DNA from: Candidatus Omnitrophota bacterium
GTDB lineage: Bacteria; Ratteibacteria; UBA8468; B48-G9; JAFGKM01
Length of the DNA stretch: 64,000 nucleotides
Direction: 5' to 3'
Assembly: GCA_023819375.1 (NCBI GenBank)
Contig: JAMWDI010000004.1
Location: forward strand, 124,001-188,000
Of the stretch, positions 1-62,325 are shown piece by piece. Position 1 is the first letter of the stretch. Each line of letters opens with the position of its first letter. A program made the position numbers and the translations under genes. A model generated the notes under the pieces. It was not told where the DNA came from, did no database searches, and was given only the letters and a program-made list of their open reading frames with translations.

Positions 1-1
1 G

Positions 2-604
2 GACTTTGATTTTCTTGAAAATCCTTTGAAAAATTATATTGAAAACTTATCTGAAAAAACTCCTGTTCCTGGCGGCGGGAGTGCCTCTGCTTTGCTTTCA
101 TGTCTCTCTTCTTCTCTTTTAAATATGGTTTTAAATTATACAATAGGCAAAAAAGGATATGAAAAATATGAAGATGAGATGAAAAAGTTGAGAGAGGAAA
201 ATGAAAAAATTATGAAAGAATGTTTAAATTTTATAGAAGAGGACAGCAAGATTTATTTAAAAATTGATAAAAATTTAAGAGAAAAAAAGGATTGTGAAGA
301 GTTTTTGAGAGAATCTGTTTTTCTTCATCTTAAAATATGTGAAAATATGTTAAAAGTGGTTAATTTCTGTGAAATTGTTGCTGAAAAAGGAAATAAGAAT
401 TTGATTTCAGATACTGCTATTTCAAATATTTTTGCTTATTCCTCATTTCTTAGTTCAAAAATAAATATACTTATTAATCTTAAATTTCTGAAGGACAAAA
501 ATTTTAAGAGTGAAATAAAAGAAAAACTGAAAAAAATTGAGGAAGAAATTAGAATAAAAAGTCAGGAAAATCACGAAAAAATGGTTAAAAAAATGGAGGA
601 ATAA
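2..604 (+). CDS. fchA: Methenyl-THF cyclohydrolase (FchA), 5' end outside window
   Basis: Cyclodeaminase/cyclohydrolase family protein that hydrolyses 5,10-methenyl-THF to 10-formyl-THF or runs the reverse in the methyl branch of the Wood-Ljungdahl pathway. The family signature PVPGGGSASA lies near the start, followed by the expected all-helical body and charged C-terminus. The reading frame is open to the left edge: residues before the TTG at 26 (DFDFLENP) are in frame and look native, so the true start lies at or just beyond the edge and the TTG is not the start. folD begins one base after the stop. FchA beside a FolD that lacks its catalytic lysine suggests that FchA supplies the cyclohydrolase step. 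The family call is firm; the start is unknown. Confidence 0.9.
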   Translation, partial: DFDFLENPLKNYIENLSEKTPVPGGGSASALLSCLSSSLLNMVLNYTIGKKGYEKYEDEMKKLREENEKIMKECLNFIEEDSKIYLKIDKNLREKKDCEEFLRESVFLHLKICENMLKVVNFCEIVAEKGNKNLISDTAISNIFAYSSFLSSKINILINLKFLKDKNFKSEIKEKLKKIEEEIRIKSQENHEKMVKKMEE

Positions 605-605
605 A

Positions 606-1463
606 ATGGGAAATTTAATTGATGGGAAAATTATAAGTGAAAAAATAAAGGAGGAAGTAAAAAAGGAAATAGAATTTTTAAGATCAAAAGGTATAGTCCC
701 GAAACTTGTTAGTATTTCCGTTGGAGAAAATCCAGCAAGTTCTGTTTACATAAATCAGCAGAAAAAAAATTGTGAGAAAATAGGAATTGATTATGAGGTT
801 TTAAATCTCCCTGAAAATTTAACTGAAGATGAAATATGTGAAAATATTGAGAAATTAAATCGTGATGAGAATATTACAGGAATAATTTTGCAACTACCTT
901 TACCAAAAGGAATAGATACAAGAAAAGTTCAGTCAAAAATTTCTTATTTGAAAGATGTTGAAGGAGTTAATCCATCAAATATGGGATGGATTGTTTATGG
1001 CAGACCATATGTTGGTCCTTGTACTGCTCTTGCAGTTAAAGAAATTATTGAATATCTTAATATTGACCTTTATGGAAAAGAGGTTGTTATGGTTGGACAT
1101 TCTGATATTGTTGGTAAACCTGTTGCTTTACTTTTAGTTGATAAATTCGCAACTGTTACGATATGTCATATAGGAACTTATGATGCTGGTAAACTTGAAG
1201 AACATGTGAGAAGAGCAGAGATTTTAATTGTCGCTGTTGGAAAAGCAAATTTAATACCAGGTGAATGGATTAAAGAGAAAGCAATAGTTATAGATGTAGG
1301 AATAAATAGAGTTGGTGATAAAATTGTAGGAGATGTAGAATTTGAAAAAGCAAAAGAAAAAGCAAGTTGGATTACACCTGTTCCAGGAGGTGTAGGTCCA
1401 GTTACAACCTCAATTTTATTGAGAAATACAGTTTTACTTGCGAAATTGCAGAAGGGAGTATAA
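606..1463 (+). CDS. folD: Methylene-THF dehydrogenase FolD with altered cyclohydrolase site
   Basis: 285 residues, normal FolD length. It oxidises 5,10-methylene-THF to methenyl-THF with NAD(P), or runs the reverse during acetogenesis. Visible family marks are NPASSVY near residue 45, QLPLP near 100, GHSDIVGKP near 164 and ITPVPGGVGP near 256. The Tyr-x-x-x-Lys motif of bifunctional FolD reads Y48-I-N-Q-Q52, so glutamine replaces the lysine tied to cyclohydrolase activity, and the usual CTPxG stretch is CTALA. The start has a GGAGG ribosome site overlapping the end of fchA. I infer a mainly monofunctional dehydrogenase paired with the neighbouring FchA. The family is certain; loss of cyclohydrolase activity is inference from residues. 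Confidence 0.93.
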   Translation: MGNLIDGKIISEKIKEEVKKEIEFLRSKGIVPKLVSISVGENPASSVYINQQKKNCEKIGIDYEVLNLPENLTEDEICENIEKLNRDENITGIILQLPLPKGIDTRKVQSKISYLKDVEGVNPSNMGWIVYGRPYVGPCTALAVKEIIEYLNIDLYGKEVVMVGHSDIVGKPVALLLVDKFATVTICHIGTYDAGKLEEHVRRAEILIVAVGKANLIPGEWIKEKAIVIDVGINRVGDKIVGDVEFEKAKEKASWITPVPGGVGPVTTSILLRNTVLLAKLQKGV

Positions 1464-1465
1464 AA

Positions 1466-2290
1466 ATGGAAAAATTAAAGGTTATATGGTTTCAAGCAGG
1501 AACTTGTACAGGTTGTACTATTTCTCTTTTGAATTCATCCTCTATAAAAGTAAAAAATCTACTTCTTGATGAAATAGTTCCTGGTAAAATTATTTCTCTA
1601 ATTTTTCAATCAACAATTATGGCTGGTAGTGGAGAAAAAGTAATTGAAATTGTGAAAGAGGAATCTGAAAAGGGGAATTTTTTTCTTGTTGTTGAGGGTG
1701 CAATTTCAACAAAGGATGAAGGGATTTACGGGAAAATTGGAGAGAAAACATTTTGTGAGGTTATTTTTGATCTTGCAAAAAAAGCAGATGGAATAATATG
1801 TCTTGGAAGTTGTTCTTCTTTTGGTGGAATACCTAAGGCAAGTCCGAATCCCACAGGATGTAAATCAGTTAATGAAATTCTGGAAGAAAAAAATATTAAA
1901 AAGATGCTAATAAACATTCCAGGCTGTCCACCACATCCTGATTGGTTCATTGGAACAATCTCAAAAATTATGACTTTAAACAGAATAGAATTAGATGAAT
2001 TGAAAAGACCTATTGATTTCTATGGAAAATTAATTCATGAAAATTGTCTAAGGAGACCATTTTTTGATAAAGGGAAATTTGCAAAATCATTTAAAGAAGA
2101 GGGATGTCTCTATTTGCTTGGCTGTAAAGGCCCTTATACTTATGCTGATTGTCCTTTAAGAGAGTGGAATGGTGGAGTAAACTGGTGTGTAAAGAATAAT
2201 TTCCCATGTTTAGGTTGCACTGAACCCGAATTTATTGAAAAAAATATTCCATTTTTTAAAAAGAAAGAAATTGAAAAAATTGGAGAGTGA
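1466..2290 (+). CDS. [NiFe] hydrogenase small subunit, no Tat signal
   Basis: 274-residue electron-transfer subunit of a [NiFe] hydrogenase. Near residue 10 it has WFQAGTCTGCTISLLN, giving the first two cysteines of the proximal [4Fe-4S] cluster; GSC near 112 and PGCPPHP near 150 complete that cluster. The C-terminal half has a HENC plus a cysteine-rich run ending CLGCTEPEF, as expected for medial and distal clusters. No twin-arginine leader precedes the first motif, so the enzyme should be cytoplasmic, unlike periplasmic group 1 enzymes. The motifs look closest to group 1/2 sequences, but I cannot place the group by eye. ATG at 1466 follows the folD stop by two bases and has GGGAG upstream; an in-frame start 33 codons earlier lies inside folD and is rejected. 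Confidence 0.92.
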   Translation: MEKLKVIWFQAGTCTGCTISLLNSSSIKVKNLLLDEIVPGKIISLIFQSTIMAGSGEKVIEIVKEESEKGNFFLVVEGAISTKDEGIYGKIGEKTFCEVIFDLAKKADGIICLGSCSSFGGIPKASPNPTGCKSVNEILEEKNIKKMLINIPGCPPHPDWFIGTISKIMTLNRIELDELKRPIDFYGKLIHENCLRRPFFDKGKFAKSFKEEGCLYLLGCKGPYTYADCPLREWNGGVNWCVKNNFPCLGCTEPEFIEKNIPFFKKKEIEKIGE

Positions 2291-2293
2291 AAA

Positions 2294-3832
2294 ATGGGAA
2301 AGAAAATAATAATTGATCCAGTAACAAGAATAGAAGGGCATCTTAAAGTTGAAATTGAAATTGAAAACAAAAGAGTTGTTGATGCTAAATGTAGTGGAAT
2401 GTTATATAGAGGTATAGAAAAAATTTTGATAGGGAAAGACCCAGAAGATGCAACTCAAATAACTCAAAGAATATGCGGAGTTTGTCCTATTGCTCATGCT
2501 TCTGCTTCAACTCTTGCTTGTGAAGATGCTTTTGGAATAACTGAAAAGATACCTTCAAACGCTTTACTCGTGAGAAATTTAATTCATGCTTCTAATCATA
2601 TTCATAATTCAATATTGCATTTTTATCATTTATGTTTACTTGACTTTGTAGATGTAAGAAAAATAAAAAAGGGAATTAGTAGTGAAATAGAACTTCTCTG
2701 TAAATTTTTAGAAAGAGATAATTATTATCCATTTAATGTTGAAGAGGGTGATTTTAGATTACCAGAAGATGTAAATATTAGATGTCTTCAAAATTATATA
2801 AAAGGCCTTGAAATAAGAAGATATGCTCATCAACTTTTAAGTATATTTGGTGGCAAAATGCCACATAATTGTGGTTTTATTCCAGGTGGAGTTACCCAGA
2901 AAATTGATGCAGGAAAAATAGAAAATGCTATTGGAAAAATAAAAGACATAAAAGAATTTATTGAGTTTTATTATTATAGAGATTTAAAGGAGATTGCAAG
3001 TTATTATAATGATTATTTTGAAATAGGCTCGTCCTACGGTAATTTTCTTTCATATGGAGTATTTCCTATAAGAGAAGATGGAACAATTAAAAGATTTCAG
3101 CCATCTGGTATTATTTACGAAATTGAAAAAAATGAGGAGATTAATTATAAGGAAATAACTGAACATATAATAAATTCTTGGTATGAAGGTGAAATAGAGA
3201 AACCAGAAGAAGATTTTCCCGAAATAAATTTTGAAAAGAAAACAGGTTATTCTTGGATAAAGAGTCCGAGATATAAAGATAAACCTTTTGAAGTTGGACC
3301 TTCTGCAAGAATTTTGATTGCTTACAAAAAAAATATAAGCCCTTGGAAAGAAGAAATTGAGAAAATTTTAAATGAATTTAAAATTGATATTTCAAAATTT
3401 AATTCTGTTATGGGTAGGCATTTGGCACGATTTATTGAAGCAAAAGTTCTTATAAATGAATGTTTAAATTGGTTATTAAAAATAAATCCAGAAGAAGAAT
3501 TTTATATTGAGTATGAAGTTCCCGAAGAAGGTATAGGTATAGGATTAAGTGAAGGAGCACGTGGTGCTGTCGGTCACTGGATAAAAATAAAAAACAGGAA
3601 AATTTCTCATTATCAAGTAATTTCACCAACTACATGGAATGCTTCTCCAAAAGACAAAAATGGAAATCCTGGCCCTATAGAAAAATCACTCATTGGAACA
3701 AAAATTGAAAATGAGGAAAATCCAGTTGAAATTTTGAGAATAATAAGATCTTATGATCCATGTCTTGCTTGTGCTGTTCAAATTATTGACAAAAAGAAAT
3801 TAAAAAGGAAAGAATTTATAATATGGGAGTGA
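2294..3832 (+). CDS. [NiFe] hydrogenase large subunit
   Basis: 512-residue catalytic subunit that binds the Ni-Fe(CN)2CO centre. The N-terminal nickel motif RICGVCPIAHA is at about residues 56-66 and the C-terminal motif DPCLACAVQ is near 489-497. IDPVTRIEGH at the N-terminus and SPTTWNASPKD before the last motif are also typical. The C-terminal motif normally ends in His (or Arg), after which a dedicated protease removes the tail; here it is Gln (codon CAA), followed by a 16-residue lysine-rich tail. All four nickel cysteines are present, so the enzyme should be functional. It starts three bases after the small subunit and overlaps the maturation protease gene by 10 bases. Confidence 0.94.
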   Translation: MGKKIIIDPVTRIEGHLKVEIEIENKRVVDAKCSGMLYRGIEKILIGKDPEDATQITQRICGVCPIAHASASTLACEDAFGITEKIPSNALLVRNLIHASNHIHNSILHFYHLCLLDFVDVRKIKKGISSEIELLCKFLERDNYYPFNVEEGDFRLPEDVNIRCLQNYIKGLEIRRYAHQLLSIFGGKMPHNCGFIPGGVTQKIDAGKIENAIGKIKDIKEFIEFYYYRDLKEIASYYNDYFEIGSSYGNFLSYGVFPIREDGTIKRFQPSGIIYEIEKNEEINYKEITEHIINSWYEGEIEKPEEDFPEINFEKKTGYSWIKSPRYKDKPFEVGPSARILIAYKKNISPWKEEIEKILNEFKIDISKFNSVMGRHLARFIEAKVLINECLNWLLKINPEEEFYIEYEVPEEGIGIGLSEGARGAVGHWIKIKNRKISHYQVISPTTWNASPKDKNGNPGPIEKSLIGTKIENEENPVEILRIIRSYDPCLACAVQIIDKKKLKRKEFIIWE

Positions 3833-4317
3833 AATTACTTGTTTTTGGGATTGGGAATACTTTAAGAATGGATGATGGGATAGGTGTTTATCTTGTGAGA
3901 GAACTGGAGAATTATTTTGACAAAGAAGAGATAAAAATTTATGAAATAGGGACAGAGACGTGGAGATTATTTTCAATAATTGAAGAGGAAGAATGTGAAA
4001 ATGTTGTGATAGTAGATGCAATAAATTTAAATTTTATACCAGGCTTTGTTTACTTAAGCAAAAATCCAGAAATTAAAGATTTTTGTTCTTTTTCACTTCA
4101 TGAAAAAAATTATCTTTCAGAGATAGATTTTGAATTTCTTCCGAGTAAAAATATTTACATTTTTGGAATTGAACCTTATAAAACAGACTGGGGAATTGGG
4201 CTTTCTGAAATTTTGAAGAAAAAATTTAATGAAATTTTAGAAAAGTTAGTTGAATTGTGTAATTCAATAATTAAAAAGGAGAAAAAAGATGATTTACTCG
4301 GAATTGAAACCCTTTGA
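3823..4317 (+). CDS. Hydrogenase maturation protease (HybD/HycI family)
   Basis: 164 residues, standard for nickel-dependent endopeptidases that cut the C-terminal tail of the hydrogenase large subunit after nickel insertion. Diagnostic features are GIGNTLRMDDGIG near residue 9, with the two aspartates including the first nickel ligand, VDAIN near 62, and GIEPYKTDWGIGLS near 125. It sits directly behind its presumed substrate and overlaps it by 10 bases, so the two are likely translated together. Its substrate carries Gln rather than His at the cleavage position, so this protease may have an adapted specificity; that is inference. Confidence 0.9.
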   Translation: MGVKLLVFGIGNTLRMDDGIGVYLVRELENYFDKEEIKIYEIGTETWRLFSIIEEEECENVVIVDAINLNFIPGFVYLSKNPEIKDFCSFSLHEKNYLSEIDFEFLPSKNIYIFGIEPYKTDWGIGLSEILKKKFNEILEKLVELCNSIIKKEKKDDLLGIETL

Positions 4318-4963
4318 TGAAATTTTAAAATTACTGAAAGAGGAAAAAGTGTTTTTGATTCTTTGTAATGGATGTGCAGAAGTATGTAAAGTTAGTGATG
4401 AAGAAAATATTAAAGAAATTGAAAAAAAATTGAGAGAAAATGGGAAAATAATTGAAGGCAAAGTTAAAATTGATTTTTTATGTAGTAAAAATTTAATAAT
4501 CAGAAAACTTTCAAGATATACTGAAAAACTTTTAAATTCTTCATCAATTCTTGTTTTTTCATGTGGAATAGGAGTTCAATGTGTTTCAAAAATGATTGAT
4601 CTACCTGTTTACCCTGCAACAAATACAGTTTATCTTGGTGGCTTTCAGGGATTGTGGCCAGGAGAAGAAAGATGTTTAGAGTGTGGAACATGTTTTCTTG
4701 GAATAACAGGAGGAATTTGTCCAATTACTTTTTGTACAAAACAACTTGTGAATGGACCTTGTGGAGGGACAAATAAAGGTAAGTGTGAGATTGATTCAGA
4801 GAAAGATTGTGGTTGGGCTTTGATATACGAAAAACTTAAAAAAATAGGAAAACTTGAAATTTTGAAAGAATATCAGGAACCAAGAAATTATAAACTTGTT
4901 GAAGTTCCATCTAATTTGAGAAAAAAAGTATTTTTTGATATTGATAAAAATGAGGAGTTATAA
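4289..4963 (+). CDS. metV: MetV-like cysteine-rich partner of methylene-THF reductase
   Basis: 224 residues matching the MTHFR C-terminal / MetV family, a cysteine-rich protein that forms a complex with MetF in acetogens and relatives. Cysteines occur as CNGCAEVC near residue 25, CGIGVQC near 91 and a dense run CLECGTC - GGICPITFC - GPCGGTNKGKC between about 131 and 168, with metal and cluster binding expected. It overlaps the end of the protease gene by 29 bases, has AAGGAG upstream of the ATG, and abuts metF. In known systems MetVF needs a further electron-input module; the hydrogenase in the same operon is a candidate here, which is inference. Confidence 0.87.
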   Translation: MIYSELKPFDEILKLLKEEKVFLILCNGCAEVCKVSDEENIKEIEKKLRENGKIIEGKVKIDFLCSKNLIIRKLSRYTEKLLNSSSILVFSCGIGVQCVSKMIDLPVYPATNTVYLGGFQGLWPGEERCLECGTCFLGITGGICPITFCTKQLVNGPCGGTNKGKCEIDSEKDCGWALIYEKLKKIGKLEILKEYQEPRNYKLVEVPSNLRKKVFFDIDKNEEL

Positions 4964-5845
4964 ATGGAAATATCAAATTTACAGAAAAAATTGAATGAAG
5001 GAAAATTTGTTATAACTTCTGAAATTGGGCCAGGGAAAGGAACAAACCTTGAATTTTTAAAAGAGGCAGAAATATTGAAAGATAAAGTTGACGCTATAAA
5101 TGTAACAGATTTACAGAGTTCGGTCATGAGACTTGGCTCACTTTGTGTTTGCCATCTACTTGTTGAAATGGGAATAGAACCTATTTTTCAAATTACCTGC
5201 AGAGATAGAAACCGGCTTGCTTTACAGTCAGATTTACTTTCTGCTTATGTTCTTGGAATAAGAAATGTTTTGTGTTTAACAGGAGACCACCCAATTTTAG
5301 GAGATCATCCAGAAAGTAAGCCTGTATTTGATTTAGATTCAGTTTCCCTTTTGAAAGTCGCAAGTGAATTGATGGAAGGTAGAGATATGAAAGGTAATCA
5401 ATTAGATGGAAAACCTTCCTTTTTCCTTGGAGCAGTTGTAAGTCCAGGATATGAACCTCTTGAGTTACAGATAATAAAAATGGAAAAAAAGATTATGGCT
5501 GGTGCAAAATTTTTTCAGACGCAGGCAATTTATGACTTGAAAAAATTTGAAGAATTTATGAAAAGAGTTGAAAAATATAAAGTTCCAATTTTAGGTGGTA
5601 TTGTCCTTTTAAAATCAGCAGGTATGGCAAAATATATGAATGAGAATGTTGCTGGAGTTACAGTTCCTGATAGATATATAGAAATGTTGGCAAAAGCAAA
5701 GAAAGAGGATAGAGTTAAAATAAGTTTAGAGATAGGAGCAGAACTTATAAAAGGAATGAAGGATATGTGTTCAGGTATTCATATAATGCCTCTTGGATGG
5801 GACAAATATGTTCCTGAACTTCTTTATCTTTCTGGTTTAATTTGA
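4964..5845 (+). CDS. metF: Methylene-THF reductase
   Basis: 293-residue TIM-barrel flavoprotein that reduces 5,10-methylene-THF to 5-methyl-THF, the last tetrahydrofolate step of the methyl branch. Family marks include an N-terminal TSEIGPGKG, the DAINVTDLQ strand, QITCRDRNR and LCLTGDHP, all typical of the short MetF seen with MetV. No extra iron-sulfur or NAD domain is fused. A GAGGAG ribosome site sits before the ATG. Its last 22 bases overlap the convergent queC gene, so the operon ends here. Together with fchA, folD and metV it covers all steps from formyl-THF to methyl-THF; formyl-THF synthetase is not in the window. Confidence 0.92.
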   Translation: MEISNLQKKLNEGKFVITSEIGPGKGTNLEFLKEAEILKDKVDAINVTDLQSSVMRLGSLCVCHLLVEMGIEPIFQITCRDRNRLALQSDLLSAYVLGIRNVLCLTGDHPILGDHPESKPVFDLDSVSLLKVASELMEGRDMKGNQLDGKPSFFLGAVVSPGYEPLELQIIKMEKKIMAGAKFFQTQAIYDLKKFEEFMKRVEKYKVPILGGIVLLKSAGMAKYMNENVAGVTVPDRYIEMLAKAKKEDRVKISLEIGAELIKGMKDMCSGIHIMPLGWDKYVPELLYLSGLI

Positions 5846-11723: not shown

Positions 11724-12770
11724 TTATCCCTTCTTAACTTTATATGGCAATAACCATCTTTTTCTTTTTATAAATTCCCCTCCTTTAAATCTCTGTTCAA
11801 TAACTTCTTTTTTCTCAAGGTAATTAAAACAACTTCTCATACAACCTCTTGAACCACATATTCCAAAACTTCCACCTTCTCCCCATTTTTGTAACATGGC
11901 ATGCCCTTCTATGATATAACCCGATGGGAACTCCTCTGTTTTTCTCCATCTTCCTGTTGATAAAGTCCAGCAAAATTTATATGCAGTCTCTTCTGAAAAA
12001 TCCTGTTTTCTTGCGTCTATATTCCAGCCAGGGAAATCTTTATGTATAAAAGGAGAAACTCTTGAATCACCCCCATGATAACTTAATGTACATTTTCCAA
12101 GATGTATATCAGCCCATTCATAAACATAGTCCTCAATTTTTATCTGGATTTTTTTATTTTCTTTTATATGAGGTATTGCATAAGAAGGACAGTCATTTAC
12201 ACATTCCATACATCTTTTACAGATACTACCTGGTTTTATAAGTGGATCTGGTTCAACTTCAAGGTCAGTTATAATTGCATGTAATCTCTGTCTTGGTCCA
12301 AATTTTTTAGTTAAAAAAACTTTACTCCATCCAATTTCCCCAAGTCCAGCACAAATACCTGCAATCCTTATAGCAAGATGAACATCAGGAGGTGGGAAAT
12401 TTTTTCTTAATGGTTTTACTGGAGGTTGGGCTTCTGGTACTCCTGGATAATAAGGGACTGCTTCATATCCAAAATCTTCAATAAAACAGGCAAGTTGATA
12501 AAGAGGTTCAGGAATAAAAAAAGTATTTAAAAGACCATGATAATCAAAATAAGTATAAGAAATCCAGTTTGTCCCTTCTTCTATTCCACGCCAACCACCC
12601 CTTAATATTCTTTTTCCAACAACTATAACTGTTTTACCTTCTGGAAATATGTTTTTCGGATTCATTCTTTCTGGAGCATTTTTGAATCTTTCAATATTTG
12701 CAAAACCAATTAAATCAAGTCCAAACTTATAACCTGTTTCTCTTATTAACTCTTTCGTTAGTTTTTTCAT
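11724..12770 (-). CDS. QueG/reductive-dehalogenase-like 4Fe-4S protein (copy 4)
   Basis: 348 residues. The N-terminal region (GLDLIGFANIERF, then FPEGKTVIVVGKRI) and the segment GLGEIGWSKVFLTKKFGPRQR at 150-170 are shared by all QueG-like proteins in this cluster, as is the ferredoxin motif CKRCMECVNDCP near 195. A late GICGSRGCMRSCFNYLEK could supply ligands of a second cluster. QueG and reductive dehalogenases with this plan use cobalamin. No Tat signal is present, so it is cytoplasmic. Start set at ATG 12770 because AGGAG precedes it; the longer TTG start at 12788 would lie before that site. It has an insertion around 225-290 not seen in copy 3. Confidence 0.75.
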   Translation of the reverse strand: MKKLTKELIRETGYKFGLDLIGFANIERFKNAPERMNPKNIFPEGKTVIVVGKRILRGGWRGIEEGTNWISYTYFDYHGLLNTFFIPEPLYQLACFIEDFGYEAVPYYPGVPEAQPPVKPLRKNFPPPDVHLAIRIAGICAGLGEIGWSKVFLTKKFGPRQRLHAIITDLEVEPDPLIKPGSICKRCMECVNDCPSYAIPHIKENKKIQIKIEDYVYEWADIHLGKCTLSYHGGDSRVSPFIHKDFPGWNIDARKQDFSEETAYKFCWTLSTGRWRKTEEFPSGYIIEGHAMLQKWGEGGSFGICGSRGCMRSCFNYLEKKEVIEQRFKGGEFIKRKRWLLPYKVKKG

Positions 12771-12777
12771 TTTTCTC

Positions 12778-13626
12778 CTATTCTTCAATTATCTCGCCAC
12801 TTTTATCAATTTTCCATACAGGTCTTTTTCTAAATTTTTCATTAAATAAATTTTTTATTCTTTTTGTTTCTTCAAGATGAAAAAGACAGGTTCTTGAGCA
12901 TAAAGCAGCAATTCTATCTGGTTTTCCATTTTCATAATACATATTTGGTAAGACACCGTTTTTACATTTTTTACATATTTCATAATCAATTTCTGCAACT
13001 ATCATCTTTTTATCACATATTTCAATTTCTTTCTCTTTTTCCTTTATTGCTCCAAGTGGACATATCTTTAAACATTCTTTACATAAATCACATATATTTT
13101 CTTTCTTTATTTGATCTGGTTCAATTTCTGCATCTGTAAGTATTATTTGAAATCTTTGCCTTGGACCAAATTCTTCAGTTAAGAATATCCTACAATATCC
13201 AATTTCTCCAAGTCCTGCTCTAATTGCTGTATCTTCAATATCTATTAAAACATTTGGTGCTGGTTTCCCTTTTTTAACAGGTATTCCCATTGGTGGAACT
13301 TCAATTGGTATATCAGGCAAAGGAACTGCTTCATATCCGTTATCCTCAAGAAATTCACATATTTTAAAAGTTGTTAAAGCAAGTATTCTATTGTTTAACC
13401 ATTGATATCCATATAGATTATACAGGTGAAATTGTGTTCCTTCTTCAATTCCTCTTAAAGCCCCTCTTGTTATTCTCTTTCCTATTACAATTATACTTTT
13501 TACTTCTGGGAATATACTTTCTGGGTGGTGTTGTTTGTTAATTCCTTTAAACCTATCTATGCTTGCAATACCTATTAAATCTGCTTTAACTTCTTTTGCA
13601 AACTCTATTAATCTTTCTTTTTCCAT
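12778..13626 (-). CDS. QueG/reductive-dehalogenase-like 4Fe-4S protein (copy 3)
   Basis: 282 residues, the shortest member of the cluster. It shares VKADLIGIASIDRFKG at the N-terminus, ALRGIEEGTQF near 60, GLGEIGYCRIFLTEEFGPRQR near 140-160, and the cluster motif CDLCKECLKICP near 183. Further cysteines in YEICKKCKNG and ALCSRTCLFHLEE near the C-terminus could bind a second cluster. Eight bases separate it from copy 4. The GIEEGT phrase is shared with copies 2 and 4 but not with the fused protein, which groups these three. Function is unknown beyond likely redox chemistry with a corrinoid. Confidence 0.75.
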   Translation of the reverse strand: MEKERLIEFAKEVKADLIGIASIDRFKGINKQHHPESIFPEVKSIIVIGKRITRGALRGIEEGTQFHLYNLYGYQWLNNRILALTTFKICEFLEDNGYEAVPLPDIPIEVPPMGIPVKKGKPAPNVLIDIEDTAIRAGLGEIGYCRIFLTEEFGPRQRFQIILTDAEIEPDQIKKENICDLCKECLKICPLGAIKEKEKEIEICDKKMIVAEIDYEICKKCKNGVLPNMYYENGKPDRIAALCSRTCLFHLEETKRIKNLFNEKFRKRPVWKIDKSGEIIEE

Positions 13627-13642
13627 AAATAAAATCTTCCTT

Positions 13643-14674
13643 TTAAAATTTTTTAACTATGACTTCTTTAAAAACATTTTCACAGTAAGAACAATTTTGA
13701 CATAGTTTATTACATTTTGTTATTTTTTCAAACCAATCATCTGGAAATCTTGAATTTTCAATTATATAAGGATATAAAATTTTACTATGAGATGGTTCAA
13801 ATAAATCAAGTAAGTTGCCTTGATATTTTTCATCATAATATGCTTTTATAACTTTTTCAGGGTCCTGATTTGTCCTTGTTGCAAGTTTAACAACATCAAA
13901 ATATTTTTCATAATGATGCAAATCTTCTGGCCTTATCCACGAAGAATATGAAATTAAATATTTCCAGTTTTCTTTTTCTTTGTAAAAAGACCAGCAATTA
14001 CCAGGTATATTATCTGTCAAATTTGCTTTTGTAAATATTTCTGCTTCATGTGAAATAACATTATCATGAAAAGATTGAACAGGGCAGAAATTTATACAAC
14101 CACTATTTACAAGAATAGATAATTTTTTCCCTTTTTTATTACACCAATCTTTAATTTCTTCTATTCTTTCAAAATCCCTATTATACTCTCTTTGCATAAC
14201 AAAATCATCAAATAAATCTTCTAATTGCTCCATCTGTTTTATTTTTCCGATTCTCATATTTACACTTGCTCTTACTTCAATATCTTTAAAATTTTTCTTA
14301 ATTATATATGCAATAACTGGAGAGAAAGAAGTTATAGAATCAAGACCTATATTTTCCTGTAAATAATCAATAATTGAAATAACCATATTAGTAAGATTTA
14401 TTGATAATGAATTTTCACCCCAGCAGGAAGCATTCAAAAGTAAATTAAGTTTTATTCCAAGTTTTTTTATTTTTTTTAATTCATATTCAAGTTGTTTCTG
14501 TACAAACCAATTTATATATCCAACCTTCTCAGCAATCGGTCCTCTTCCGCTGGGTAAATTAAGCCATGGGAAATAAACTTCTTCAATTCTATCCTTATAT
14601 TTTTCAACAATATCTGAAAAAATTTGCTCCTCTTCTTTAAACTGATATCCAATAGAAAATTTTATTTTTCCCAT
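13643..14674 (-). CDS. Peptidase U32-like TIM-barrel protein with cysteine-rich tail
   Basis: 343 residues. The central segment SGCINFCPVQSFHDN near 193 and the overall pattern of alternating strands and helices (KIKFSIGYQF start, EVYFPWLNLPSG, NLLLNASCWG, EVRASVNMRIG) fit the U32 family, whose members such as UbiU/UbiV and tRNA hydroxylation factors carry a [4Fe-4S] cluster and act in oxygen-independent redox chemistry. The C-terminus has C-x3-C-x2-C-x2-C (CNKLCQNCSYC), a likely cluster site. It overlaps the neighbouring QueG-like gene by 13 bases and lies within the operon, so it probably works with it. The U32 call rests on pattern only. Confidence 0.55.
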   Translation of the reverse strand: MGKIKFSIGYQFKEEEQIFSDIVEKYKDRIEEVYFPWLNLPSGRGPIAEKVGYINWFVQKQLEYELKKIKKLGIKLNLLLNASCWGENSLSINLTNMVISIIDYLQENIGLDSITSFSPVIAYIIKKNFKDIEVRASVNMRIGKIKQMEQLEDLFDDFVMQREYNRDFERIEEIKDWCNKKGKKLSILVNSGCINFCPVQSFHDNVISHEAEIFTKANLTDNIPGNCWSFYKEKENWKYLISYSSWIRPEDLHHYEKYFDVVKLATRTNQDPEKVIKAYYDEKYQGNLLDLFEPSHSKILYPYIIENSRFPDDWFEKITKCNKLCQNCSYCENVFKEVIVKKF

Positions 14675-15576
14675 TCAATATACCATACCTTTCTTTTTCT
14701 AAAAGGTTCCTTAAATTTGTTTTTTAATTTTCCTTCTTTTTCAAGATGTATCATACATGCTCTTATACACCCTCTTGCTCCTTCAATTGCTCTGGAATAT
14801 ATAATGACAGAACTTAGTTCTCCTATAAATGGATTGTATTTTTTATAAGGTGCCAATCCTTGAAATCCTTTTGTGCATGCGTCAACGTTTAGTTTTCCCC
14901 ATTCTACTTCAGTTCCTATCGCTTTAAATCTAACTTTAACCGTTTCTTTTAAACTTATTGCTCCTGCTGAACATTCTTTTACACATAACATACATCTATC
15001 ACAAATTGGTGGCCCTTCATAAATAGGATCTGGCTCAAGAGGAGCATCTGTTAAAATACATGCAAATCTCTGCCTTGGCCCAAATTCAGGTGTTAATAGT
15101 AGTTTACTATATCCAATCTCTCCAAGTCCTGCAAGGTATGCAGCAATCCTAAAATGAATAAATACATCAGGAGCAGGTTTTTCAGGAGATACAGAACAAG
15201 ACCAGTTTTCTTTGGGTTTTCCTGTTGCATAATCAATAGCGGGCCAGTTGTAATAATCATTAGGTATTGGTGTTGCTTCATATCCATAATCTTCAATAAA
15301 TCTCGCCAAATGATAAAGAATAAAAGGCATATAAATCATATTTATACTTCCATATCCCTGTGAAGAATAGGAGAGAAAATATGTTCCTTCCTCTATACCC
15401 CTTAAAGTTCCTCTTGGTATTCTTAAAGCAAGTACTATTAAAACTTTAGCATCTGGATTTATATATCTTGGGTCCATTTGCTTTGGTGCTCCTTCAAATC
15501 TGTTTACATCTGCAATTCCAACCAAATCTGCTCCTAATTTTTTTGCTACTTCTTTTACTTTTTTTGATGTTAACAT
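14662..15576 (-). CDS. QueG/reductive-dehalogenase-like 4Fe-4S protein (copy 2)
   Basis: 304 residues. Shared landmarks are LGADLVGIADVNRFEGAP at 14-31, TLRGIEEGTYF, GLGEIGYSKLLLTPEFGPRQR near 160-180 and the ferredoxin-like CDRCMLCVKEC near 205. The proline that normally follows the fourth cysteine is serine here. Later cysteines VDAC and GARGCIRACMIHLEKEG can provide ligands of a second cluster. GGAGGAGG precedes the ATG, one of the strongest ribosome sites in the cluster. Likely cytoplasmic and corrinoid-dependent by family; the substrate is unknown. Confidence 0.76.
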   Translation of the reverse strand: MLTSKKVKEVAKKLGADLVGIADVNRFEGAPKQMDPRYINPDAKVLIVLALRIPRGTLRGIEEGTYFLSYSSQGYGSINMIYMPFILYHLARFIEDYGYEATPIPNDYYNWPAIDYATGKPKENWSCSVSPEKPAPDVFIHFRIAAYLAGLGEIGYSKLLLTPEFGPRQRFACILTDAPLEPDPIYEGPPICDRCMLCVKECSAGAISLKETVKVRFKAIGTEVEWGKLNVDACTKGFQGLAPYKKYNPFIGELSSVIIYSRAIEGARGCIRACMIHLEKEGKLKNKFKEPFRKRKVWYIEWEK

Positions 15577-15592
15577 TTTTACCTCCTCCTTT

Positions 15593-17095
15593 TTATCTTT
15601 TAATTCTTATTTCATCTTCTCCATCTTTTGTTTCTACAACAAACTCAGCATCTCTTGGAATATCTTGAGGACTTCCTTTTACATAACATAGTGGCTCTTT
15701 ATTTAAATTTATTCCTTCTTTTATAAGTTTTTCTCTTAAAATTTCTGTATCAAGTTTTCTTGGCGAAATATTTTCTTTTATTGAAAGAGCAGACGCAGTT
15801 CCAGCAGCATGTCCCATAGTTATACATGTCATTATCAGTCGTGTTCCTGACTGTGCTTCAAAATCAGTTGAAATACATCTACCTGCAACAAGAAGATTAT
15901 CTATTTTTTTAGGAATAAGACATCTATAAGGAATTTCATAATACTGGCCTGGTTTTAAGTATGCTCTATATTTCCCTTTTGGATTATTTTTTACACAACA
16001 TATTCTTCCATCTTCTCTTTCTTTATCTGTACAAAAAGCAGGTTCAATTGGTTGAGATAAATGAGTATGTTTTATATGAGGAAGATCATCTATTGGATTA
16101 TGTATATCAAAACCATGAGTGTCTCTTGCTATTGCATCTTTAAATTTTCTTGCAAGAGCTATATCTTTTCCTGTTAATTTATATTCACCAACTATCCTCC
16201 TTGACTCTCTAATCCCCAAAATTGATGCAGTATAACTTAAAAATGCCTTTTCAAATCCAATTACATTTTCTCTATAAAATTCAACAAGTTTCTGTATCTG
16301 GTCTCTCTGTTCAATTACTATTCTTGTTAAATCTTCTGCATCTGTTGTTCTACATTTTCTACTATGGGCAGTACACACATATACTTCTGTTTTTTCTTCT
16401 GGTCTATTTGGGAATGATCCTAAATATCCTTTTTCTACAAGTCGTGGCAATTTCCCTTCTTTTACTGCTTTTTCTATTTTCATCTGAACAGTTGAGTAAA
16501 AGTCAGATGAAGAAAATGAATTTAAATCAACATTTGACATAACAAAATCAAGAGAAACTGCTTGATTATAACCATCCATCAAATCCCATCCAGTCTCAAC
16601 AGGAACTCCTGCAAAATATGAAATTTCTGCATCTCCTGTACAATCAATAACTCTTTTTGCTAAAATTGCACTTCTTCCTGAAATATTTTGAATTATTACT
16701 CCTTTTATTTCATTATTTTCAACTATTGAATCAATAACATAAGTCCAGTATAAAATTTTAACACCTGACTCAATTGCCATTTTTTCCATGATATATTTTG
16801 TTATTTCAGGATCACAAATTCTATTTTCTCCAAGTCCTCTTTTTTCCTTTAACCTTTCAAGCAATTCTTTACCAATTCCTTCAGGATAACCAGCCATATA
16901 ACATACAAGACCTAAAGTTACAAGTCCACCAAGAGCACCATATTTTTCAACAAGCATTGTATTTGCTCCATTTCTACTTGCACTTATAGCAGCACCAAAT
17001 CCAGCAGTTCCTCCACCAACTACAAGAACATCAACTTCATATTTAACTTTTACTTCTTCATTAAACTTTATTTTTCCTCCTTCTATCTTTACCAT
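15593..17095 (-). CDS. FAD-dependent oxidoreductase (FAD_oxidored type)
   Basis: 500 residues. The dinucleotide-binding motif VLVVGGGTAGFGAA is at about 24-37, followed by LVEKYGALGG, and the C-terminal FAD contact is LLVAGRCISTDFEAQSGTR near 420. The middle holds RVIDCTGDAEIS, usual for this family, in which flavin oxidises or reduces small organic acids or sugars. HSRKC and ICCVKN give scattered cysteines with no clear cluster. It overlaps the fused QueG-like gene by seven bases, so it is co-translated and probably passes electrons to or from that protein. A second, separate family member lies at 41219-42574. Confidence 0.85.
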   Translation of the reverse strand: MVKIEGGKIKFNEEVKVKYEVDVLVVGGGTAGFGAAISASRNGANTMLVEKYGALGGLVTLGLVCYMAGYPEGIGKELLERLKEKRGLGENRICDPEITKYIMEKMAIESGVKILYWTYVIDSIVENNEIKGVIIQNISGRSAILAKRVIDCTGDAEISYFAGVPVETGWDLMDGYNQAVSLDFVMSNVDLNSFSSSDFYSTVQMKIEKAVKEGKLPRLVEKGYLGSFPNRPEEKTEVYVCTAHSRKCRTTDAEDLTRIVIEQRDQIQKLVEFYRENVIGFEKAFLSYTASILGIRESRRIVGEYKLTGKDIALARKFKDAIARDTHGFDIHNPIDDLPHIKHTHLSQPIEPAFCTDKEREDGRICCVKNNPKGKYRAYLKPGQYYEIPYRCLIPKKIDNLLVAGRCISTDFEAQSGTRLIMTCITMGHAAGTASALSIKENISPRKLDTEILREKLIKEGINLNKEPLCYVKGSPQDIPRDAEFVVETKDGEDEIRIKR

Positions 17096-19314
17096 TTTTT
17101 CTTCTCCCCTTTATACTTACAATTTCTTATACATTCTTCACAAATATTTAAATGCCTTTTTTGAACCCCTAATTTTAAATTCATTAAATTTTCAATTAGT
17201 TTTCTGGTTTTATTTTTTGTAGGAACTTTAAAATCTACATTTATACCCATATATTTTGGCCCTTCTTTACCTATAAGTCCATATCTTTTAGCCCAATCAC
17301 AAGAAAATTCATCAATTACAGGTATTTCAAAAATTTTATTTTCTATTTCAATTTTCACATTTTTTCTTTTTATTGCAGAGGTTGGGCAGTTTTTTATACA
17401 TTCATAACAATCTTCACAAAAATTTTCACCATTATAAAGAGGATCATTTTCAAACTCAAAATCAGTTATTATACTAAAAAATCTCTGTCTTTGCCCAAAT
17501 TCTTTAGTTATAGGTACTCCATTTTTTCCAATATATCCAAGTCCTGAAAGCAAAACAGAATAAGAATTACTTCTATTATCTGGCAAAAACCCTCTTGAAC
17601 TTAAAATTTTTGATGAAAGACCAGTTAAATCATAAGAATAAATTCCTTTATATCCACAATCATTTAATTTTTTTATAATTTTATAGGCAATGTCTGTTAA
17701 AAGATTTAATGATTCAAATTGACTGAAAGCATAAGGTCCAACTGTTTCTGCAGGTGTTATTTTTGCTGTATCAAGACAAGCATCGGGATAATGAAGTCCT
17801 ATAACAATTACTGATTTTGCATCTTTTAAATAATCTTTTGGTTCTTTTAAATTAATTTTTTCTCTTTTAATTATAGGACTTATAGGTGCATAAATGTGAG
17901 ATATATCATATACCATTTCAACTTCTTCAGGCAAATTAAATTTTTTTAAAAATTCTTTTTTAAACTTCTCAAATCTATTGATGTTGAAAAATCCAACTAA
18001 ATCTGCACCACATTCTTTACAGAAATTCCTAAATTTTTCTTTTTCAATTTTTTCTTTTTCAATTTTCCTTTTAATTTTAATTTCTTTTAGTTTTGCACTT
18101 ACAAGGATTGTTGAGAAAATTGTATCTTCTTCCCATATCCCAATTTTTTGAGCGGTAAGATTATCATCTATCTTTGTTCCAGTTATTCCAGAATATCCAT
18201 TTATATCAAAATAATGTGCAATATCAAAAGAGGCGTATTGTATTAATCTATGTTTTATATAATTTTCAATTTCTGTGTCATAATCTTTAGGTTTTTTTAT
18301 TCCTATTGAAATTACTGAAGAAACATCTGGCAAATGTAATTTGGGATTTATTGAAAAATCATTTTTAAAGAAATTCACATTCTTTATACAAAGGAAATCA
18401 ATCAAATATTTATCAAAAATTTTCTTAATTTCCTCAATTTTTATTTCCTTCTTTTCCTTTTTTCTTCTTGGTGCTCTACAATAATTTTTATCATAATATC
18501 TTTTACTTGGAACCATACAGAATTTTAGGCAACATCCTTCTTCTCCTGCAAAAAGTCCATATTTTTCAAGATTTTCAATTATTACATTCTCATCTATTTT
18601 TTCAGGTATTTTTAAAAATAGATTAAGACAGAAATTTTCAGCCCATCCACATCTCCATTTATTTGTATCTGGGAACTTAAATATTCTACCATCTATTTCT
18701 ATTTCATTTATTTTTTTGACTTCCTTTCTAAATGAATCTGTTGGACAATTTTTAACACATTCCATACATCTATCACATAATTTTTCTCCTTCATACATTG
18801 GATCTGGAATAAGTTCTGCTGATGTAATGATTGTAACAAGGCGAACCCTTGGTCCAAATTCTGGATGCAAAAATAAGCCACTCCATCCAATTTCACCAAG
18901 TCCACAAGCAACAGCAGCATACCTGTGAGCAATGTCTGGAGCAAAATGTATTTTTAAATCCTTATATCCTTTATATCTCCAAATATTGCTTGAAACAATA
19001 GGAAGTGTATCATAACCTTTGTTTTCAAGAAATTTTGCCATTAAAAATGAAATATCATCAAGTTTTGGATTCATAACTGAACTTTGACTTCCATAAGGAC
19101 CTATATTATGAGGAGTGGGCTCTCCACCAAGTTCAACACTGGCATCAAGATGATGGATACCGCAAACAATAACACTCTTCGCACTTGGCAATAAATCTTC
19201 TGGACTCATTCTTTTTGGAGCATTTTTAAATCTCTCAATACTTCCAATCCCTACTATATCTGCACCAAGTTTTTTTGCATATTCTTTAACTTCTTTTGTT
19301 AAATTTTCATTCAT
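17089..19314 (-). CDS. Fused QueG/reductive-dehalogenase-like protein, two full modules
   Basis: 741 residues, more than double the usual length. Module A (1-290) has LGADIVGIGSIERFKNAP, GLGEIGWSGLFLHPEFGPRVR and CDRCMECVKNCP near 198. A linker region (290-425) resembles the N-terminal part of the fold (LPDVSSVISIGIKKP, YFDINGYSGITGTKIDDN) but has no cluster motif. Module B (425-741) begins CKECGADLVGFFNINRF and has GLGYIGKNGVPITKEFGQRQR and CEDCYECIKNCP near 650, ending with CEECIRNCKYKG. So it reads as two working modules with a decayed partial copy between them. It overlaps the IclR gene by four bases (ATGA) and is the first structural gene of the operon. Confidence 0.77.
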   Translation of the reverse strand: MNENLTKEVKEYAKKLGADIVGIGSIERFKNAPKRMSPEDLLPSAKSVIVCGIHHLDASVELGGEPTPHNIGPYGSQSSVMNPKLDDISFLMAKFLENKGYDTLPIVSSNIWRYKGYKDLKIHFAPDIAHRYAAVACGLGEIGWSGLFLHPEFGPRVRLVTIITSAELIPDPMYEGEKLCDRCMECVKNCPTDSFRKEVKKINEIEIDGRIFKFPDTNKWRCGWAENFCLNLFLKIPEKIDENVIIENLEKYGLFAGEEGCCLKFCMVPSKRYYDKNYCRAPRRKKEKKEIKIEEIKKIFDKYLIDFLCIKNVNFFKNDFSINPKLHLPDVSSVISIGIKKPKDYDTEIENYIKHRLIQYASFDIAHYFDINGYSGITGTKIDDNLTAQKIGIWEEDTIFSTILVSAKLKEIKIKRKIEKEKIEKEKFRNFCKECGADLVGFFNINRFEKFKKEFLKKFNLPEEVEMVYDISHIYAPISPIIKREKINLKEPKDYLKDAKSVIVIGLHYPDACLDTAKITPAETVGPYAFSQFESLNLLTDIAYKIIKKLNDCGYKGIYSYDLTGLSSKILSSRGFLPDNRSNSYSVLLSGLGYIGKNGVPITKEFGQRQRFFSIITDFEFENDPLYNGENFCEDCYECIKNCPTSAIKRKNVKIEIENKIFEIPVIDEFSCDWAKRYGLIGKEGPKYMGINVDFKVPTKNKTRKLIENLMNLKLGVQKRHLNICEECIRNCKYKGEKKKW

Positions 19315-56806: not shown

Positions 56807-56953
56807 ATGTTCAGGATTTTGAAGATAATCTGTCTGGAAAGAATTAATCATTGCAAGGAAAGAAATATAGAAGATGACTTAAATGAATTACAAAGGAGAG
56901 GGCAAATAGATGTGAAAAAATTGTTTAGAATTCTTTATAATATCAAATTTTAA
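56807..56953 (+). CDS. Possible 48-residue ORF or gene tail
   Basis: ATG at 56807 to TAA at 56951-56953. The product begins MFRILKIICLERINHC and ends RILYNIKF; the middle (RNIEDDLNELQRRGQIDVKK) is polar and protein-like, more so than a random AT-rich frame. No ribosome site. It may be a small gene or the end of a decayed one. It fills most of the 200-base gap 56750-56949, and its stop overlaps the end of the UroD-like gene. Confidence 0.28.
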   Translation: MFRILKIICLERINHCKERNIEDDLNELQRRGQIDVKKLFRILYNIKF

Positions 56954-57963
56954 AACCTTTGTGATGTAAACATTTCTACTATTGTAATTATGTTTTCAAG
57001 TGGAGTTTCAGGTCTTATAGGTTTTGCACATCCAAGAATATAACCCCCACCTTTTCCCATTTCTTTACATAACCTTTCTATTTCTTTTTTTAGTTGTTCT
57101 GGTTTTCCAAAAGGTATTATACTCTGACTTCCAAGTCCTCCCCAGAAAGTAATTTTATCTCCATATCTTCTTTTTAAATTATAAGGGTTCATATTCCTTG
57201 CTTCTGGTTGTACAGATTGTAAAACATCAAGACCAATTTCAACAATATCATCCATAATGTCATAAATAGAACCGCAACAGTGGCTTAAAACAACTTTTCC
57301 ACTTTTTTTAACCTTTTCATATAATTTTGCAACTTTTCCCTTTATAAACTTTCTCCATCTTTCAGGCCCAAGTATAACTCCTCTTTGATCCCCCCAGTCA
57401 TCTGAAAACATAACTCCATCAATTGGTAATTCAAGACAGATGTCAAGAAAACTGTTTTGTAATTTGTAAATTTTATTCAACAGTTCTTCATAAAAATCTG
57501 GTTTTGTAACTGACCAGATTAAAGCGTTTTCAAAACCGCAAATTGTCCATGTTCTTTCAAATAATCCAAATCCAATTCTTGCTACAATAAATTTATCTTT
57601 ATTTTCTTCTATAAATCTTTTAACTTCACAAATTCTTTCTTCTTCAATAAATTCTTCTATATCAGGGAATCTATAATTTTTAAAATCAGGTTGGGTTAAT
57701 CCTGGTTTTTCAAGATGCATTGGTTTTAAATCTATCCTCCATATACTTCCATAAATATCAATAACATAATTTTTGTCCATCTCTTTCCTTTTTTCAGTAT
57801 CAATTGGGCTTACACTTAAAATATAATTCTTTATTTTCTCTTTCCAAATATCATAAAATTTCTTATATTTCTCAATTGTTTCTTCTTCAAAATCAATAGT
57901 ATAAGGAATAAAATCTGTTTGCTTATGATTAATCACTTCATAGACAAGTTCTTTCTGAGTCAT
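56950..57963 (-). CDS. Uroporphyrinogen decarboxylase-fold methyltransferase
   Basis: 337 residues of the UroD/MtaA superfamily. Zinc-binding pattern H-x-C plus distant C is present: VVLSHCCGS near 225 and ILGCAKPIRPETPLENI near 308, as in corrinoid-protein:acceptor methyltransferases and unlike true decarboxylases. It could move a methyl group from a corrinoid protein to a thiol or tetrahydrofolate acceptor. It is the last gene of an operon with an MttB-like methyltransferase, which would load the corrinoid. No corrinoid protein is in the window; the operon runs off the right edge. Confidence 0.82.
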   Translation of the reverse strand: MTQKELVYEVINHKQTDFIPYTIDFEEETIEKYKKFYDIWKEKIKNYILSVSPIDTEKRKEMDKNYVIDIYGSIWRIDLKPMHLEKPGLTQPDFKNYRFPDIEEFIEEERICEVKRFIEENKDKFIVARIGFGLFERTWTICGFENALIWSVTKPDFYEELLNKIYKLQNSFLDICLELPIDGVMFSDDWGDQRGVILGPERWRKFIKGKVAKLYEKVKKSGKVVLSHCCGSIYDIMDDIVEIGLDVLQSVQPEARNMNPYNLKRRYGDKITFWGGLGSQSIIPFGKPEQLKKEIERLCKEMGKGGGYILGCAKPIRPETPLENIITIVEMFTSQRF

Positions 57964-60948: not shown

Positions 60949-62325
60949 TTATTTTAGTTTTTTTACTGCTTTTTCCCAGATTTTATTAAGTTCTTCTGAC
61001 TGTTTTTCATCTCTTTTAAAGTTATGCTTATTTAAAATTTCAATTGCTTTTTCTCTTGCTTTTTGCCATATTGATTTCTTTCCATTCTTTTCCCATATGT
61101 TGAATGTTTCATTTGAAAATATTTCAGAAACAAATAAATTCCTTTTATAATTTTGAAGTGTTTCAGGATGAGTGAGAAAAGTATTTTCTTTTAAAATACA
61201 TTCTTCCATTAATTCTATATTCATTTTATTCTCATCAAATTCAACACCTTCTAACAAACTTAAACAACTTTTTAAAATTTCATACTGAATTATTACCTGT
61301 TCAATAGAAGCAATTTCATCTATACAACACATTCCTGCCCAACCAAACATTTTAAAGCCCATAAGTAAAGACAATATAACTCCTGCAGAGGAAAATCCTA
61401 CTTGTGCATCTCCTGGATATTTTCCCATAGTATTGAAAACTTTTGCCATAATTTCTATTCCGTAAAATTTTCCTATCTGATATAGTAATAAATTTAACTT
61501 TATAAAATCTGGTCCCCCAAATACTATACTTCCATATTTCATGTCAAATGGATAAACAAATGGAGAAAAATATACTTCATTATTAGGAGATAAAATTTTT
61601 AAAATTGAGGCCCCTCCTATAACTTCTGCTATACTCTGGGCAATTGAAGAAAAGAAATCAACAGGGGAGGTTGCCCCAATCATAGGCATTGTTCCAACCG
61701 AAAAAGTTGTTTTTTTATCAAAATATCTTGAAGCATTTTCAATTAAGAATTTATCAAAAGCCATAGGACTTATCATATGCATACCAATTTCATATTTCCC
61801 TTCTATAAGACAAATAATTTCCTGAACTATATCAAAAACATAATTATCACTAAAAATGCCAGCCCCATATATTCTATCTGAAACATCAAGGCAAAACTTA
61901 TAAGTTGCAATTTCTGCTAATTTTTGGGGTAAATCTGATGGAAATACAAGAGCACAACCATAAGCACCAAGAGTATGAGCAATTTTTGTAAAAATAATTA
62001 AATCATTTAAAGTTGGCTTCCTTATCTCACCTGTATATAGGTCATAACATCTTAATGAATATCCAGAAACGTAAAATTTAATTTCCTTATTTTGTTCTTT
62101 TTGTTTTTTTGGGAATGGCCCAAATAATTCTTCAATTTTTTCTGGTTTTATGTAAACTCTATTATTCTTTATAAAAATATTTTTATCCTGTGGTATCATT
62201 TTTAAAATATTTTCAGAAGGAATGAGAATTCCAATTTTTTCAATCAATCTTAAGGCAAAATCATGTATTTTTTTTATTTCTTCATCTGTAAGACCACCTT
62301 TTAATTCCCACGTTATCTTTCTCAT
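60949..62325 (-). CDS. MttB-like corrinoid methyltransferase, no pyrrolysine
   Basis: 458 residues of the trimethylamine methyltransferase superfamily. LTDEEIKKIHDFALRLIEKIGI at 13-34, GAGIFSDNYVFDIVQEI near 155 and TMPMIGATSPVDFF near 210 are typical. No in-frame TAG occurs, so it is the non-pyrrolysine branch; characterised members demethylate glycine betaine, proline betaine, carnitine and related compounds by transferring methyl to a corrinoid protein. Overlaps the isomerase-like gene before it by four bases. Neighbours are sugar-type enzymes, unusual for this family and hinting at a methylated sugar or polyol derivative. Confidence 0.85.
   Translation of the reverse strand: MRKITWELKGGLTDEEIKKIHDFALRLIEKIGILIPSENILKMIPQDKNIFIKNNRVYIKPEKIEELFGPFPKKQKEQNKEIKFYVSGYSLRCYDLYTGEIRKPTLNDLIIFTKIAHTLGAYGCALVFPSDLPQKLAEIATYKFCLDVSDRIYGAGIFSDNYVFDIVQEIICLIEGKYEIGMHMISPMAFDKFLIENASRYFDKKTTFSVGTMPMIGATSPVDFFSSIAQSIAEVIGGASILKILSPNNEVYFSPFVYPFDMKYGSIVFGGPDFIKLNLLLYQIGKFYGIEIMAKVFNTMGKYPGDAQVGFSSAGVILSLLMGFKMFGWAGMCCIDEIASIEQVIIQYEILKSCLSLLEGVEFDENKMNIELMEECILKENTFLTHPETLQNYKRNLFVSEIFSNETFNIWEKNGKKSIWQKAREKAIEILNKHNFKRDEKQSEELNKIWEKAVKKLK

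Follow-up and report, generated by a model that had tools for sequence, protein, structure and literature searches.

The operon at the start of the window (the whole 64,000-nucleotide stretch of DNA analysed here) likely encodes a soluble, cytoplasmic H2:methylene-THF oxidoreductase, in which a hydrogenase and a MetV subunit matched to it form an exchangeable electron-input module. H2 would then probably feed the methyl-group-forming step of carbon fixation directly in several uncultured bacterial groups, the hydrogenase replacing the usual NADH-using partner. Which electron donor methylene-THF reductase uses matters greatly for the energy balance of acetogenesis and is a subject of continuing debate; if a hydrogenase-linked type is real, H2 would be the direct donor in methylene-THF reduction.

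Operon Organization

Open reading frames and profile searches show that fchA-folD-hyS-hyL-hyD-metV-metF form one tight operon on the plus strand (window 1-5845). Intergenic gaps are 0-3 bases, and hyL/hyD and hyD/metV overlap by 10 and 29 bases, respectively. The coordinates, gene order and tight spacing given in the first-pass annotation were thus reproduced. The features are as follows:

1..604, + strand: fchA, methenyl-THF cyclohydrolase (FTCD_C PF04961, 2.7e-42)
606..1463, + strand: folD, methylene-THF dehydrogenase/cyclohydrolase (PF02882/PF00763)
1466..2290, + strand: hyS, leaderless [NiFe] hydrogenase small subunit, 274 aa (PF14720, 4.6e-32; PF01058; alignment)
2294..3832, + strand: hyL, [NiFe] hydrogenase large subunit, 512 aa (PF00374, 2.2e-137; NF033181, 572 bits)
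2468..2485, + strand: RICGVC, N-terminal Ni ligand motif of hyL
3755..3781, + strand: DPCLACAVQ, C-terminal Ni ligand motif of hyL, with Q where H normally precedes the maturation cut
3823..4317, + strand: hyD, hydrogenase maturation protease (PF01750, 4.8e-13; TIGR00072)
4289..4963, + strand: metV, Fe-S subunit of methylene-THF reductase (PF12225, 6.6e-32)
4919..4948, + strand: RKKVFFDIDK, C-terminal tail motif of hydrogenase-linked MetV
4964..5845, + strand: metF, flavin subunit of methylene-THF reductase (PF02219, 1.7e-34)

The ATG start codon of fchA lies just 5' of the window (G000:C9:123999, G000 being the window genome), and its full open reading frame was read in the contig. The operon is preceded by a rhamnulokinase-like gene, the 5' neighbour of fchA, and followed by queC on the opposite strand. 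MetF (PF02219) and MetV (PF12225) encoded together indicate, by gene content, a MetVF-type methylene-THF reductase; the window genome encodes no PF12225 protein other than the cassette MetV. No Hdr, Mvh or RnfC2 gene was found within the operon, as the first-pass annotation had also read it.

Sequence Features of the Hydrogenase

HyL carries both group 1 motifs, RxCGxC and DPCxxC (RICGVC and DPCLAC). The Fe-S ligands of HyS are complete (C14, C17, C116, C154, H191, C194, C214, C220, C229, C241, C248, and C251), and the alignment shows that those for the proximal, medial and distal clusters are all kept. Judged by its sequence, the hydrogenase is catalytically complete. The solved chains nearest to HyL are 4kl8_L and 1cc1_L (about 385 bits), both from [NiFeSe] hydrogenases. 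With the group 1 [NiFe] uptake hydrogenases, of which the [NiFeSe] type (4kl8, 1cc1) is nearest, the window enzyme has in common both subunits and the Ni and Fe-S ligands, a likeness drawn from motifs, solved-chain matches and trees of the retrieved sequences. It differs from them in its linkage to MetVF and in having no Tat leader, no C-terminal anchor and no cytochrome partner gene in the operon. HyS begins with MEKLKVIWFQAGTCTGC, and in an alignment with relatives both a Tat leader and a hydrophobic C-terminus are absent, in agreement with the cytoplasmic location that had been proposed from the missing leader. Tat-type relatives have RRxF leaders, and several have hydrophobic C-termini as well; both are found in the Carboxydothermus islandicus and Dehalococcoidia relatives.

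Two further features of the hydrogenases were noted. The six cassette genomes of the window's phylum all have DPCxxCxxQ in HyL, while other retrieved hydrogenases, including those of cassettes outside the phylum, have H before the maturation cut. In the tree, Tat-type HupL-like hydrogenases of Chloroflexota (L036, L151, L153-L162) adjoin the MetV-linked Chloroflexota hydrogenases; since they are neighbours, one may derive from the other.

Recurrence of the Cassette

The arrangement hyS-hyL-(hyD)-metV-metF is present in 19 genomes of four phyla, counting the window genome and one cassette cut by a contig end. It occurs in two more genomes of the same genus (G023 and G024), in a second genus of the family (G021, whose contig ends in hyD) and in a second family of the order (G004 and G008). 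Outside the phylum it was found in five genomes of the phylum sampled around an Elusimicrobia genome, five of the phylum sampled around a Spirochaetota-labelled genome, and three Chloroflexota genomes, of which one lacks hyD. One Elusimicrobia cassette (L007) sits between fhs and fchA-folD-CODH-ACS. The same order recurring in four phyla argues that it did not arise by chance. Conservation in relatives was one of two points on which the first-pass annotation had staked its reading, and the cassette is both conserved across these phyla and swapped with an RnfC2 module at the same locus (see below).

Within the hydrogenase group scoring >400 bits, HyS is leaderless wherever metV lies downstream and has a Tat leader where metV is missing, with two uncertain calls (L145, a weak SRKDFLK leader, and L163, unreadable). 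All MetV-linked hydrogenases may or may not share one origin, which the AU test did not reject (p=0.31), nor was one origin rejected for the MetVs (p=0.28). A Dehalococcoidia genome (G038) has a MetV beside Hdr-like genes (L105) in addition to a hydrogenase-MetVF cassette lacking hyD (L106).

The general possibility of operon reshuffling is all that speaks for a chance neighbourhood, in which the folate operon would have taken up an unrelated cytoplasmic hydrogenase that has nothing to do with MetVF functionally. Against it stand the conservation of the order in four phyla and the leader loss that goes with metV adjacency, together with the mutual exclusion with RnfC2 and the co-inheritance with MetV described next, and we give this explanation hardly any credence.

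Exchange with the RnfC2 Module

MetV was detected in 27 of 35 genomes of the window's phylum. Many of these genomes have, at the corresponding locus, fchA-folD, a gene for a protein of about 700 aa, and metV-metF. In this protein a MetV domain is joined to RnfC (PF12225 + PF13375 + PF01512), as it is in RnfC2 of type III enzymes (PMC8760232). The common locus reads rhamnulokinase-fchA-folD-X-metV-metF, where X is the hydrogenase in the window and the RnfC2 fusion in G015; G019 also has the fusion version, as far as its contig extends. RnfC and MetV searches of the phylum found fusions of 621-708 aa in 14 genomes and contig-cut ones in 2 more. Hydrogenase and fusion were found together in none (6 hydrogenase vs. 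16 fusion genomes, some of them incomplete). Within the window's own genus, G026 carries the RnfC2 version next to a MetF close to that of the window.

In the MetF tree, the window genus forms one starred group (99/97) in which hydrogenase and RnfC2 types are mixed, and the AU test rejected placing all hydrogenase-linked MetFs of the phylum in one clade (p=2e-6). In the MetV tree, the hydrogenase-linked MetVs of the phylum, from both families, form one starred clade (96/93) and the RnfC2-linked MetVs another; here the AU test rejected the window genus as one clade (p=8e-5). The groups were defined by gene content before tree building, and these two one-clade tests were picked after the trees had been seen. 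By these phylogenies MetF tracks the species and MetV tracks the partner, which implies that partner and MetV were exchanged together upstream of a resident MetF. One module, [hydrogenase+MetV] or [RnfC2+MetV], has thus taken the other's place next to an unchanged MetF; either state may be the older one. The pattern suggests that MetV adapts the reductase to its electron source, and it amounts to a natural exchange experiment, in which a single genus combines the same MetF with either an H2 or an NADH module.

The C-terminal Tail of MetV

The tail motif was present in 16 of 18 hydrogenase-linked MetVs, across four phyla, and in none of 41 others, namely 11 with other neighbours from the first alignment and 30 Bacillota MetVs that served as an independent control (Fisher p=1e-12, uncorrected for kinship and with the motif defined from the same alignment). 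One Chloroflexota cassette lacks the motif (L149) and another keeps it partly (L106). The tail may dock the hydrogenase. A structure model of MetV built from three sequences had a mean pLDDT of 52.6, too low to inform docking, and a search for solved structures matching MetV by sequence found none. As a possible marker of hydrogenase linkage, the third cysteine of the MetV sequence CNGCAEVC was rejected, being absent in G024 and the Chloroflexota cassettes. The tails of other MetVs look partner-specific too: those of Bacillota (L166-L195) sort into classes, e.g., DGGPRKxVRED and PRNLNLR, that seem to match the neighbouring genes.

Comparison with Known Enzymes

The hydrogen-dependent CO2 reductase (HDCR) consists of an [FeFe] hydrogenase and a formate dehydrogenase. 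Like the predicted window enzyme, it is soluble and ties H2 to a single reduction within the Wood-Ljungdahl pathway, but the proteins are unrelated and the step is a different one; the window genome has no PF02906 protein and hence no [FeFe] hydrogenase by that profile.

Four subunit types of methylene-THF reductase, I-IV, are recognized (PMC8760232; PMC9430772), and the window enzyme would likely add a fifth. Type III, MetVF-RnfC2 of Acetobacterium woodii, resembles the window enzyme in its MetV and MetF core, its adjacent extra electron-input module and its solubility, and stands at the same locus in relatives. In the window, however, a [NiFe] hydrogenase that uses H2 stands in for the NADH-using RnfC2, there is no second MetV domain, and no RnfC2 with an N-terminal MetV domain, the hallmark of the type, was found in the window genome. 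In type IV, MetVF-HdrCBA-MvhD of Moorella and Sporomusa, electrons reach MetVF through Fe-S partner proteins, as is proposed for the window enzyme, and methylene-THF reduction is driven by H2 in membranes of Sporomusa (PMC9430772). There the hydrogenase is periplasmic and probably attached to the membrane through cytochrome b, with MetVF tied to the membrane via Hdr/MvhD, whereas the window hydrogenase is cytoplasmic and encoded within the operon, and no HdrCBA-MvhD gene lies in or adjoining it. Type II, MetVF alone in Clostridium ljungdahlii and Thermoanaerobacter kivui, has the same MetV and MetF subunits and is ferredoxin-dependent in vitro with no partner; in contrast, the window operon has hydrogenase genes directly upstream of metV, an arrangement conserved in 19 genomes.

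The full text of open-access papers yielded no description of a hydrogenase-MetVF operon, and the Sporomusa membrane chain was the only H2-dependent methylene-THF reduction found in it. This agrees with the first-pass annotation, to which no described complex of this make-up was known.

Proposed Electron Transfer and Alternative Explanations

In the proposed enzyme, HyL would split H2 and electrons would pass through the HyS clusters to the MetV clusters, the MetF flavin and finally methylene-THF; hydrogenase and MetV would occupy the place held in relatives by the MetV-RnfC2 fusion and its own MetV (type III, NADH-dependent). That the subunits form a complex and pass electrons along this route is inferred, and the direction is argued from redox potentials. 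The H2 potential is -414 mV. Methylene-/methyl-THF lies at about -200 mV (PMC9430772), so that the reductive direction would be favoured by roughly 0.2 V, or roughly -41 kJ/mol. The step being scalar and soluble, no energy would be conserved in it. That H2 is the electron source of MetVF, as first suggested, is supported by agreement with all genome-level predictions tested, and direct transfer from hydrogenase to MetV would be the simplest form of our inference.

MetVF alone accepts electrons from reduced ferredoxin, as purified type II enzyme does in vitro (PMC8760232), which makes a diffusible relay possible. The genes might then be merely co-regulated, the hydrogenase reducing soluble ferredoxin or another carrier and MetVF being an ordinary ferredoxin-dependent type II enzyme. 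Stable complexes are not always formed even by established partners: Sporomusa HdrBCA-MvhD did not co-purify with MetVF (PMC9430772). A free-carrier enzyme would have no need of a matched MetV, yet MetV shares its inheritance with the hydrogenase rather than with MetF or the genome, and the hydrogenase-linked MetV has its own tail. The hydrogenase also replaces a subunit known in a complex, RnfC2 of A. woodii (PMC8760232). We therefore regard a soluble carrier as unlikely. Alternatively, the complex could be real and work in reverse, oxidizing methyl-THF and releasing H2 to syntrophic partners. The methylamine- and URO-D-type methyltransferase-like proteins in the window (60949-62325 and 56950-57963; resemblance only) would fit this, and MetVF-RnfC2 is slowly reversible when pulled (PMC8760232), but the reaction would run about 200 mV uphill at standard conditions and require H2 to be very low and the methyl-THF ratio high, which makes it quite improbable. 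CODH/ACS in the genome is compatible with either direction and does not discriminate.

Metabolic Context

The window genome encodes CODH/ACS and, elsewhere, HypF. It also has an Rnf operon, whose clear RnfC (439 aa) carries no MetV fusion; NADH would therefore be available too, which counts against H2 as the donor. A second hydrogenase is group 4-like with Mrp-type subunits, and RICGIC and DPCYCC are retained in its large subunit. Most relatives encode a group 4-like large subunit whether or not they have the cassette, so by itself it does not explain the module exchange. This hydrogenase may make part of the H2 inside the cell: it would oxidize ferredoxin and pump ions, and the H2 would then be used by the cassette enzyme. 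If so, the route from ferredoxin to methyl-THF would conserve energy through an intracellular H2 cycle. The wider proposal, a fifth class of methylene-THF reductase in at least four phyla with hydrogenase as a subunit and H2 as direct donor, combined with such a cycle, we put at slightly under an even chance. A hydrogenase-linked type could explain the pathway in groups with Ech/Mbh-like, not bifurcating [FeFe], hydrogenases.

NuoE-, NuoF- and NuoG-like proteins adjoin CODH/ACS (L110 15367-18462, G000:C3), which suggests a link of CODH to NAD. Several paralogous QueG (epoxyqueuosine reductase)-like Fe-S proteins, with an FAD-dependent protein among them, are encoded on the minus strand at 11724-19314 of the window (named by eye). 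The products of 56950-57963 and 60949-62325 resemble, by eye, URO-D-type and MttB-type (methylamine) methyltransferases, possible methyl sources. A CRISPR-like repeat array at about 6300-12300 of L221 (G000:C3), whose repeat translates as SQSPLKRVIFSN/VAIPFKTGHFFQ, is followed by Cas-like genes.
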